Positions 2,268-33,242 of a stretch of DNA of 33,242 nt are shown here, piece after piece. The stretch spans positions 1 through 33,242 of the forward strand of contig JAILDI010000190.1 of assembly GCA_024689525.1 (NCBI GenBank). Reading direction: 5' to 3'. Below the pieces are notes generated by a model. That model worked only from the letters and a program-made list of their open reading frames with translations. It ran no database searches and was not told the DNA's origin. Made by a program: the position numbers and the translations under genes. How positions within the stretch are numbered: position 1 is the first letter of the stretch; every line of letters begins with the position of its first letter. The DNA comes from Bacteroidales bacterium. GTDB lineage: Bacteria; Bacteroidota; Bacteroidia; Bacteroidales; UBA932.

Positions 2268-2813
2268 CTTGCTGTTGTAGTGGGGGTGAACTTTGCCCTT
2301 GACTATGTTCTGTAGCTTGCTGGAGAGCATCTTGCGGCGGATTGGAGCGGCGTGGTCGGTGAACAGGTCGCCGTCCAGATGTGAAAGCTCGTGCTGGATC
2401 ATCCGGGCGGCGAAGTTGTCGAAAACTTCGCTCTGGGGCTTGAGTTCCTCGTCAAAATACTCCACCTTGATGGTTTTGGGGCGGGTGACGTCGCAGTAGA
2501 TGCCGGGAATGGAGAGGCAGCCCTCCGAGTAGGTTGTCTGCTCCTTGCTTTCCTCCACTATCACCGGGTTGATGAGGGTGCGGCGGAAGCCCTTCAGATA
2601 GTCGTACGTGTCGGCCACAACATCGCCGTCCACGATCACTACCCTCTGGCTCACGCCAATCTGGGGTGCGGCAAGGCCGCAGCCATCGGCCCGGGCAAGG
2701 GTGTCCTTGAGGTCCTGGACCAGGGCTTTGATTTCTTCCGGCTTGCTTAAATCGGCCTCCAGGGCTTTCTCCCTGAGCACAGGGGCGCCATACAAATAAA
2801 TAGGTTTTATCAT
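2259..2813 (-). CDS. def: Peptide deformylase
   Basis: This 184-residue enzyme removes the formyl group from the initiator methionine of nascent proteins in the cytoplasm. All three signature motifs are present: GCGLAAPQIG (residues 44-53), EGCLS (97-101) and HELSH (141-145). The metal ligands are therefore C99, H141 and H145, with E142 catalytic. Its length is typical of the family. The ATG start lies in an ATGA overlap with the stop codon of ruvX (2810-2813), so the two are translationally coupled and probably transcribed from the ruvX promoter. It converges tail to tail on the GH2 gene with zero spacing. Confidence 0.97.
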   Translation of the reverse strand: MIKPIYLYGAPVLREKALEADLSKPEEIKALVQDLKDTLARADGCGLAAPQIGVSQRVVIVDGDVVADTYDYLKGFRRTLINPVIVEESKEQTTYSEGCLSIPGIYCDVTRPKTIKVEYFDEELKPQSEVFDNFAARMIQHELSHLDGDLFTDHAAPIRRKMLSSKLQNIVKGKVHPHYNSKLK

Positions 2814-27420: not shown

Positions 27421-27451
27421 TTTGGAGGTTCCGAAAAAAGCAGTATCTTTG
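27421..27451 (+). promoter_or_regulatory. Promoter of rpsU
   Basis: TTTG 27421-27424 and TATCTTTG 27444-27451 have exactly 19 bp between them, a full consensus match. The ATG lies 30 nt after the -7 box. The -33 element starts two bases after the stop of the upstream fragment. Confidence 0.85.
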
Positions 27452-27465
27452 CGGTCCCTAACGAA

Positions 27466-27474
27466 AAGGAGGTG
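27466..27474 (+). promoter_or_regulatory. Strong Shine-Dalgarno sequence of rpsU
   Basis: AAGGAGGTG, extended to AAAGGAGGTG at 27465-27474, is complementary to the 16S rRNA 3' tail, with the GGAGG ending 9 nt before ATG 27482. Other genes here use A/T-rich leaders without such a sequence. It also fixes the rpsU start against an upstream in-frame ATG at 27422. Confidence 0.9.
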
Positions 27475-27481
27475 TAAAAGC

Positions 27482-27676
27482 ATGATTATCGTTCCCGTAA
27501 AGGAAGGCGAAAATATCGAAAGAGCGCTTAAGAAATTCAAGCGTAAGTTCGAAAAGACAGGTACCGTACGCGAAATGCGCGCCCGGAAGAACTTCGAGAA
27601 GCCGTCCGTAATCAAGAGGATCGCCCATCAGAAGGCTGTCTACGTGCAGCATCTCCGCCTCCAGGAAGAGCAGTAA
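27482..27676 (+). CDS. rpsU: 30S ribosomal protein S21
   Basis: This 64-residue bS21 (MIIVPVKEGENIERALKKFKRKFEKTGT, then EMRARKNFEKPSVIKR) is a small-subunit protein that sits near the 3' end of 16S rRNA. Start chosen at ATG 27482 because of the Shine-Dalgarno sequence and family length. In Flavobacterium, bS21 is reported to contribute to occlusion of the anti-Shine-Dalgarno sequence, and its own mRNA carries a strong Shine-Dalgarno sequence allowing autoregulation. The same arrangement is visible here. It is monocistronic, with its own promoter and a strong terminator. Confidence 0.97.
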   Translation: MIIVPVKEGENIERALKKFKRKFEKTGTVREMRARKNFEKPSVIKRIAHQKAVYVQHLRLQEEQ

Positions 27677-32041: not shown

Positions 32042-32123
32042 GCGGGTGTGTTGGAATTGGTAGACAACCCAGACTTAGGATCTGGTGCCTCACGGCGTAT
32101 GGGTTCGAGTCCCTTCACCCGCA
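32042..32123 (+). tRNA. tRNA-Leu (anticodon UAG)
   Basis: GCGGGTG (32042-32048) pairs with CACCCGC (32116-32122), with discriminator A32123. The anticodon stem CCAGA/TCTGG encloses CTTAGGA, giving TAG. A long variable arm (TGCCTCACGGCGT region) marks a class II tRNA. CCA is not encoded. Confidence 0.95.
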
Positions 32124-32127
32124 CAAG

Positions 32128-32153
32128 CCGGCCTCTTCGAGGGCCGGTTTTTT
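32128..32153 (+). terminator. Intrinsic terminator after tRNA-Leu
   Basis: CCGGCC (32128-32133) pairs with GGCCGG (32142-32147), with a T-G pair and a 6-nt loop, then six T (32148-32153). Its T-run merges into the first TTTGACAG half-site upstream of the Fic gene. Confidence 0.88.
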
Positions 32154-32217
32154 GACAGAAATTTTGCAATCTGTCAAATTTTTGCTATTTTTGACAATTG
32201 AAAAGAAAACTGTCAAA
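32151..32217 (+). promoter_or_regulatory. Fic promoter with four alternating TTTGACA half-sites
   Basis: The core promoter is TTTG 32163-32166, 19 bp, then TATTTTTG 32186-32193. Woven into it are half-sites TTTGACAG (32151-32158), its inverse CTGTCAAA (32171-32178), TTTGACA (32190-32196) and CTGTCAAA (32210-32217). Their starts are 20, 19 and 20 bp apart, about two helical turns. One overlaps the -7 box, and the last touches the ATG. A repressor operator is the natural reading. Confidence 0.7.
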
Positions 32218-33242
32218 ATGGAAGCATACGAAAGACATACTCCTTACAACCAATTTCCGCCCCTTCCTCCTGAAACGTCATTATATCTGGATGAGGAAGT
32301 CGGGGCCAAACTGGTGCAAGCAAGCAGACGGCTGGCCGAGTTAAAAGGCTTGGCGGCCACGCTCCCCAACCAGACCATCTTCGTCAATACCATTGCCTTG
32401 CGGGAAGCAAAGGCCAGTAGTGCCATTGAGAATATATTTACCACAGACGATGAGCTCTATCGTAGACTATCCTACCAGGAAGATGACTACTTGGAGGGGC
32501 CGGCCAAGGAGATTCTACACTATAGGGAGGCTCTCTGGAAAGGTTTCCAGGACATCAAAAAAGAGAAAAACCTAAGCGTCGAAACAGTCGTTGACATCTT
32601 CCATCAAGTCAAACAGACGCACGAAGGAATTCGTCCATATCAGGCAGAAATTGTAATCAAAAAGAGAGGTTGGGGGTCCTTAATTGCGGAAACCGTCTAT
32701 ACTCCCCCTAGAGGAAAAGGAGTCGTGGAAAAAAAGATGGCCGAGTGGATTGACTTCCTGAACGACGATTCTGCCTTCCCCATTGACCCGCTCCTCAAAA
32801 TGGCAATGGCTCACTATCAGTTTGAAGCCATCCATCCATTCCGGGACGGCAACGGCAGGACAGGCCGAATCCTATGCATTATCTATTTGATTCAAAAGGG
32901 GCTCCTGGATCTGCCCATCCTCTATCTGAGCGCCTATATTCTTCAGAACAAGGATGCATACTATTATGCACTTAATAGCGTGACTGGCCTCAGGAACTGG
33001 AAGGCATGGATTCTTTATATGCTTGAAGCCGTTTCCCAGACATCGGAATACACCATTGAAAAGATAAACCGTATCCGCTCTTTGATGGAAAAGACGGAAA
33101 GACTCATCCGGGAGAACAAACTTCCACTGGCCAGACTCAACCTTTCCAAGCTGTTTGAACAGCCCTATATCCGTCCTAAGAACCTTATGTCAGATACAAT
33201 TAAGAGTGTCAATACGGCCAAAAAGTACCTTAATCAGTTGGA
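32218..33242 (+). CDS. Fic family protein (AMP-transferase type), 3' end cut by the window
   Basis: The frame is open from ATG 32218 to the window edge (341 codons seen). The Fic active-site motif HPFRDGNGRTGR is complete (H206-R217), predicting transfer of AMP, or another phosphate-containing group, to a hydroxyl of a target protein. An N-terminal helix carries the inhibitory pattern S-x-x-x-E-N (S67-E71-N72 in KASSAIENIF), so the enzyme would be auto-inhibited (class II). Residues from about 305 (LNLSKLFEQPYIRPKNLMS, VNTAKKYLNQL) look like a winged helix, so it may bind DNA and repress its own gene. No antitoxin gene is seen upstream. It lies just after a tRNA-Leu and is more A-rich in appearance than its neighbours. 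Confidence 0.92.
   Translation, partial: MEAYERHTPYNQFPPLPPETSLYLDEEVGAKLVQASRRLAELKGLAATLPNQTIFVNTIALREAKASSAIENIFTTDDELYRRLSYQEDDYLEGPAKEILHYREALWKGFQDIKKEKNLSVETVVDIFHQVKQTHEGIRPYQAEIVIKKRGWGSLIAETVYTPPRGKGVVEKKMAEWIDFLNDDSAFPIDPLLKMAMAHYQFEAIHPFRDGNGRTGRILCIIYLIQKGLLDLPILYLSAYILQNKDAYYYALNSVTGLRNWKAWILYMLEAVSQTSEYTIEKINRIRSLMEKTERLIRENKLPLARLNLSKLFEQPYIRPKNLMSDTIKSVNTAKKYLNQL

Follow-up and report, generated by a model that had tools for sequence, protein, structure and literature searches.

DNA-binding Fic proteins and the SoFic gene of the window

Autoregulation by a Fic enzyme has a precedent in CccR of Yersinia pseudotuberculosis, a distant relative of SoFic and a proven autorepressor whose operator was footprinted and mutated (PMC9755527; papers cited by PMC number are represented here by excerpts of their text). 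Like the SoFic protein described below, CccR is a Fic enzyme with a C-terminal HTH and has inverted repeats over its own promoter, near -35 and -10; it is a T6SS effector and shares 29% identity over 45% with SO_4266 (PMC9755527). CbFic2 resembles SoFic in its DUF4172, Fic and wHTH domains and in forming a dimer via the same N-terminal helix, and it binds DNA; its specific binding sequence was left as future work, its reported activity is on histone H3, and DNA binding by SoFic was undemonstrated as of 2023 according to the same excerpt (PMC10628234). AbiEi-type antitoxins likewise act at a promoter that carries a single inverted-repeat set or two of them, and their autoregulation of the toxin locus is cooperative (positive or negative), although their DNA-binding domain is on the antitoxin and not on the toxin enzyme (PMC7319586).

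The SoFic family itself is represented by Shewanella SO_4266 (PDB 3eqx/3zcn) and E. coli Sofic. The latter is a toxic dimer which was not clonable under a single lac operator and which has a downstream antitoxin gene, AS1; in published SoFic structures, the C-terminal domain of the apo form shows an outward twist relative to that of the ATP-bound form, and toxicity depends on the contact between this domain and the catalytic one (PMC12249575). The restraint of SoFic before infection and its triggering during infection are called open in that excerpt. No operator is described for SoFic in the excerpts of PMC3667792 and PMC12249575, SoFic is not mentioned in that of PMC12894286, and no published SoFic operator was found in our literature search, which covered a PMC library.

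The window, the whole stretch of 33,242 nucleotides of a Bacteroidales bacterium that was analysed, ends within a Fic gene (Table 1). The window translation contains both HPFRDGNGRTGR and SSAIEN, corresponding to the FIC and N-terminal inhibitory motifs as defined in PMC9755527. The full-length relative P0001 (370 aa, 99% identical to the window protein) has, in this order, the domains Fic_N, Fic and SoFic-like_C (85.5, 59.3 and 47.7 bits, all above the cut-offs) and matches the PADLOC SoFic profile over residues 11-368 (E 7.8e-105), while the cut-off window protein alone reaches 23.9 of 27 bits for SoFic-like_C. Structure models built with 17 close relatives were poor (mean pLDDT 50) and became good (88) when distant relatives were added; the predicted fold matches SoFic, C-terminal winged helix included. 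The winged helix suspected in the first-pass annotation was thereby confirmed in the full-length relative by both domain profile and structure model. Judged by its sequence, the window gene is a SoFic gene, a member of a known anti-phage toxin family, which shares domains, FIC motif, inhibitory motif and fold with SO_4266 and E. coli Sofic.

A small ORF at 27422-27676, upstream of a long AsmA-like ORF, presumably encodes a protein resembling ribosomal protein bS21, and the SoFic neighbourhood in the window, which ends in what we take to be a PrmA-like ORF and the tRNA-Leu gene, seems to be a housekeeping one. The hairpin and T-run between the tRNA-Leu gene and the first half-site are probably the tRNA-Leu terminator; this hairpin was not reported by the consensus terminator scan.

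Table 1 Features at the end of the window, in order of position
Feature	Position	Strand	Support
tRNA-Leu gene, upstream	32042..32124	+	ARAGORN
GC-rich hairpin then T-run leading into HS1 (probable terminator)	32125..32150	+	inverted repeat
HS1 TTTGACAG	32151..32158	+	1.61 bits per base, 34 nonredundant loci
-33 promoter element TTTG, within the HS1-HS2 interval	32163..32166	+	exact TTTG at N18-20 in 42/54 loci
HS2 (CTGTCAAA on +)	32171..32178	-	1.81 bits per base, 34 nonredundant loci
-7 promoter element TATTTTTG (TAnnTTTG)	32186..32193	+	TAnnTTTG in 54/54 loci
HS3 TTTGACAA, 7/8 bases, overlaps -7 box	32190..32197	+	1.84 bits per base
HS4 (CTGTCAAA on +), abuts start codon	32210..32217	-	1.65 bits per base
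SoFic gene (by sequence), first 341 codons, cut by window end	32218..33242	+	Pfam, PADLOC, PDB matches
N-terminal inhibitory helix motif SSAIEN ((S/T)xxxE(G/N))	32416..32433	+	translation
FIC motif HPFRDGNGR	32833..32859	+	translation
Start of C-terminal winged-helix domain (SoFic-like_C; residues 289-363 in P0001)	33082..33240	+	

The half-site array and its conservation in Bacteroidales

The four half-sites in front of the gene alternate in orientation with start-to-start spacings of 20, 19 and 20 bp and are threaded through a promoter of the form TTTG-N19-TATTTTTG. HS1 and HS2 flank the -33 element, HS3 has four bases in common with the -7 box, and the last base of HS4 directly precedes the ATG (32218). 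The elements of the Bacteroidota sigma-ABfr criterion, TTTG at -33 and TAnnTTTG at -7, are both present and correspond to the Bacteroidota promoter consensus (PMC7366714). These positions, orientations and spacings, as well as the interwoven consensus promoter, the -7 overlap and the contact with the ATG, had been proposed in the first-pass annotation, and all of them hold on re-checking of the sequence.

Single half-sites occur at chance level (the 8-mer with one mismatch is found 21 times in the window, 21.75 being expected), and a generic repeat count restricted to the window upstream found 4 copies, which is not significant (p 0.069). The case rests on order, spacing and conservation, and it was on these, and not on repeat frequency, that a chance origin of the array was rejected. 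As an ordered alternating four-site array, the window scores 23 of 24, with a maximum of 19 among 1000 first-order resamples. With the generic repeat test, p 0.05 was reached by 25/53 upstreams from Bacteroidales, the window among them, by 27/59 upstreams of other SoFic genes and by 19/200 controls; L042 was excluded from this test and from the any-8-mer array test because of insufficient upstream sequence.

Scanning one genome per species yielded 159 relatives. The best 80 entered the analysis, and 57 of these, whose best segments are about 68-99% identical, are from Bacteroidales. Together with the window and without four loci, the 57 form a set of 54. Three of the excluded loci (L002, L008 and L024) have too short an upstream, HS2-HS4 being visible in L002 and L024. 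The fourth, L054, lacks both HS4 and the N-terminus, and its array continues after HS3 straight into SoFic coding sequence (L054:160-240). The array is present in 54/54 of these Bacteroidales loci with complete upstream and intact start, and its scores of 27-32 of 32 compare with a maximum of 24 in 500 resamples of the window upstream. The spacing is 20/19/20 in 45 loci, 21/19/20 in five and 20/19/21 in four, so that the HS2-HS3 distance (19 in 54/54) is the sole invariant one; the gap from HS4 to the ATG is 0-4 nt in 53 loci and 27 in one. Conservation across 34 nonredundant arrays amounts to 1.6-1.8 bits per base in the half-sites, 0.9 in the linkers and 0.10 in the 60 bases upstream of HS1, and every one of these arrays has the TA of its -7 box. 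Conservation of half-sites and spacing before orthologous genes was a check set by the first-pass annotation, and it came out in favour of that annotation.

The gene neighbourhoods of the Bacteroidales loci are diverse by blastn (43/49 distinct upstream and 43/49 downstream, with no widely shared downstream neighbourhood at the nucleotide level), which indicates that the array belongs to the gene's own module.

Since TTTG is within the -7 box and HS3 contains it, the sites might be mere Bacteroidota promoter sequence in which repeats arise by chance. This is extremely improbable, because HS1, HS2 and HS4 are conserved though they lie outside the promoter elements and such arrays are rare before other ORFs of the same loci. 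A role of the repeats at the RNA level, where they would form a hairpin close to the start codon, is also most unlikely. HS3 and HS4 are indeed inverted and just before the ATG, but the position of the -7 box would, for this promoter type, put the transcription start at or after HS3, so that HS4 alone would fall in the leader. RNA folding of 32198-32260 is unremarkable (z 0.38), and HS1 and HS2, upstream of that start, are about equally conserved.

Layout and half-site type across the SoFic family

The same operator was sought and rejected in the distant clade L058-L080 (46-51% identity), where TTTGACAG arrays are absent (17-22 of 32 vs up to 24 for the resampled window). Most of these loci bear TTTAAKGTC/GACMTTAAA-type sites, L078-L080 few. 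In the relatives from Pedobacter, Mucilaginibacter and Hymenobacter, the TTTGACAG array is gone and there are mostly several GACMTTAAA or TTTAAKGTC sites, the order of which is not strictly alternating in Pedobacter-type genomes.

The layout was therefore scored irrespective of its letters, by looking for four sites of any 8-mer that alternate in orientation at intervals of 18-22 bp, with a threshold of 18 of 24. This threshold was passed by 30/58 SoFic upstreams from outside the Bacteroidales cluster, or 13/24 protein clusters at 65% identity, compared with 19/396 upstreams of other ORFs in the same loci and 2.6% of resampled sequences. Three of the 13 passing clusters score exactly 18, and 10/24 pass at >=19. 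At >=20, the counts are 12/58 for SoFic, 6/396 for control upstreams and 0.06% for resampled sequences. As 28/58 upstreams and 11/24 clusters fail, the layout is common without being universal, unless the bluntness of the test is to blame. With other spacings, or with all sites in one direction, 0-11 of the 58 pass; the count of 11 belongs to alternating arrays at 13-17 bp, and a shift of the word may let the same sites yield these. In these sets, L102 and L104 (of L085-L127) were omitted as partial, L087 (39 aa to the first stop) was removed from the clusters, and the script found no ATG for L105, L109, L110, L120 and L088, the last of which was re-added later with its annotated start; start codons of L058-L080 were placed five codons before the match in the generic-repeat and array tests.

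Individual loci illustrate the range. In L124, seven CTTTACAA-type sites alternate at intervals of 20-22 bp. The Marinobacter plasmid L085 carries at 620-800 a ATCGACAT array and a near copy of the TATAGAA-type array; both precede the SoFic gene, with the array that belongs to it, by about 700-870 bp, and they resemble leftovers of earlier SoFic promoters. Viral contigs yielded no SoFic relatives when scanned with P0001 and seven (L091-L097) when scanned with an alignment. Relatives are present in 278/5426 complete E. coli genomes at the search sensitivity used. ATCGACA sites upstream of the KRQTA-type genes of L095 and L121 led to the expectation of the same sites before E. coli SoFic, and E. 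coli Ec-2977 (L129) has them, as ATGTCGAT alternating at 19/21/19 bp with a score of 20. L128 scores 19 and L130 17, and 7 of the 14 newly fetched loci (L128-L141) reach 18. Single scores in this comparison are unreliable, since other geometries sometimes score as high or higher: L086 reaches 18 as direct and 19 as alternating repeats at both 13-17 and 23-27 bp vs 18 for the 18-22 layout, L131 reaches 20 at 13-17 bp vs 17, and L130 18 in another geometry vs 17. In E. coli S10 (L128:1441-3741), SoFic is annotated as frameshifted and is followed by a second Fic family gene.

The first-pass annotation had called such a regular array unusual for a single-gene promoter. This overlooks the recurrence of the layout before roughly one in two of the other SoFic genes analysed: the alternating array is common in the SoFic family, and it is the letters of the half-site that diverge.

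These letters were compared with the protein by grouping the upstreams according to the residues with which the recognition helix begins and counting word copies per upstream (Table 2). The half-site type tracks these residues in different phyla and also in E. coli, a match that is partly due to shared ancestry; 12 upstreams were left unclassed by the script and several small helix classes are without any listed word.

Table 2 Half-site words by class of recognition helix
Start of helix	Word	Copies per upstream	Occurrence
S[IVL]NTA	TTTGACA	3.2-3.5	
AENTA	CATTAAA and CCTTAAA	2.5 and 1.8	
KRQTA and KRQAA	ATCGACA	2.8 and 3.25	Bacteroidota, alpha- and gammaproteobacteria
SRITA	TTTACAT or TATACAT	1.6 and 0.9	
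PKTV	TTACTCT or TTACCCT		

Within whole genomes, the pair TTTGACA-N14-TGTCAAA (<=1 mismatch) was found in 16 of the 17 related genomes searched, and all of its sites but four are at SoFic, which gives little sign of a regulon; the reversed control pattern gave one match in G010 and one in G013. A separate host regulator that controls SoFic together with other genes through this array is very unlikely. TTTGACA-type inverted repeats are generic enough to serve a resident repressor, and SoFic lies among apparent housekeeping genes in the window. Against such a regulator, however, the pair is almost absent elsewhere in the 17 genomes, the half-site varies in step with the recognition helix of SoFic itself, and several phyla as well as plasmids show the layout.

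One of the four sites away from SoFic, in L081 (~2611-2706, minus strand), resembles a SoFic remnant, that is, an apparent deletion scar. Three TTTGACAG half-sites in the order F-R-F are followed within ~20 bases by the last dozen SoFic codons (tblastn 83% over 12 residues, E 0.047), and the genome also has a separate full-length SoFic (L017). The other three (L082, L083 and L084) have one mismatch, with no significant SoFic match in the 4 kb analysed for each. Such apparent scars of the array with gene remnants, the location of the gene behind a tRNA and the variable neighbourhoods would also suit repeats that mark the end of a mobile or recombining element and serve to move the gene; the sites are nevertheless locked to the -7 box and the ATG, and we regard this origin of the repeats as very improbable.

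Probable self-repression by SoFic

The four half-sites are very probably the operator of the gene's own product, with SoFic repressing its promoter via the winged helix. Dimeric SoFic, an AMP-transferring anti-phage toxin, would grip the half-sites by its C-terminal winged helix and block the polymerase, with the -33 element enclosed by one inverted pair and the other pair lying over the -7 box and the 5' leader as far as the ATG. The array would be filled by two dimers, perhaps with one on each inverted pair, and the toxic protein would be held very low and restored after dilution or use. The toxicity of Sofic and the failure to clone it under a single lac operator fit a need for tight repression. 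The autorepression put forward in the first-pass annotation is thus well supported by the conserved half-sites and spacing, the winged helix of the full-length relative and the CccR precedent. The cooperativity and the coupling to AMPylation state that the annotation also suggested are conjectural. Direct results of the analysis are the sites and how well they are conserved, the near-exclusive occurrence of these sites at SoFic in related genomes, the helix match and the fold, and from them we infer SoFic binding, repression, dimer stoichiometry and a possible cooperativity at the array.

Agreement of flanking bases exceeded that of shuffled pairs for HS1/HS2 at position 8 (p 0.0095) and for HS3/HS4 at position 9 (p 0.02) among 18 comparisons made. 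Within HS2/HS3 there was no agreement above shuffled, and at position 10 HS1/HS2 agreed less than shuffled (11/46 vs 22.2).

Several observations speak against self-repression through this array. The CccR footprint consists of two 10-bp boxes with a 26-bp spacer and the half-site AGATAATCAT, in contrast to the four 8-bp sites at 20/19/20 in the window, so that the four-site array is a different arrangement, and the CccR dimer differs from the 3eqx dimer (PMC9755527). The outside loci and clusters without an alternating array at the threshold (28/58 and 11/24), the non-alternating order in Pedobacter-type genomes, the equal or better scores of other geometries in L086 and L131, and the part of shared ancestry in the match of helix and half-site point in the same direction.

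It is conceivable, though rather doubtful, that the array also serves as a readout of the enzyme state, the strict spacing letting one dimer state alone grip neighbouring half-sites. Activation at the time of infection would then loosen SoFic from the DNA and free the promoter, and the silent gene would give a burst of toxin. The twist between the apo and ATP-bound forms of the Sofic C-terminal domain makes a link of enzyme state to DNA binding imaginable. If this were true, the recurring layout with drifting letters would reflect selection on dimer geometry, and helix and half-site would co-evolve so that SoFic copies in one cell avoid cross-regulation. SoFic-like_C (PF21248) is above the cut-off in 58/198 sampled genomes of the class, several of them with two or three matches, and SoFic copies with different half-sites may therefore coexist.

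The array appears, by inference, to be a strongly conserved self-operator of a known defence family; for autoregulation itself, CccR is the precedent. Within the PMC literature searched, we take as new the alternating array, its recurrence in the family with drifting sequence and the helix match. The winged helix of SoFic gains predicted target sequences in several phyla, and the conserved array, together with the first table relating helix to half-site, makes self-repression and its release directly testable. The layout of the array suggests how a dangerous self-poisoning enzyme may be kept quiet.
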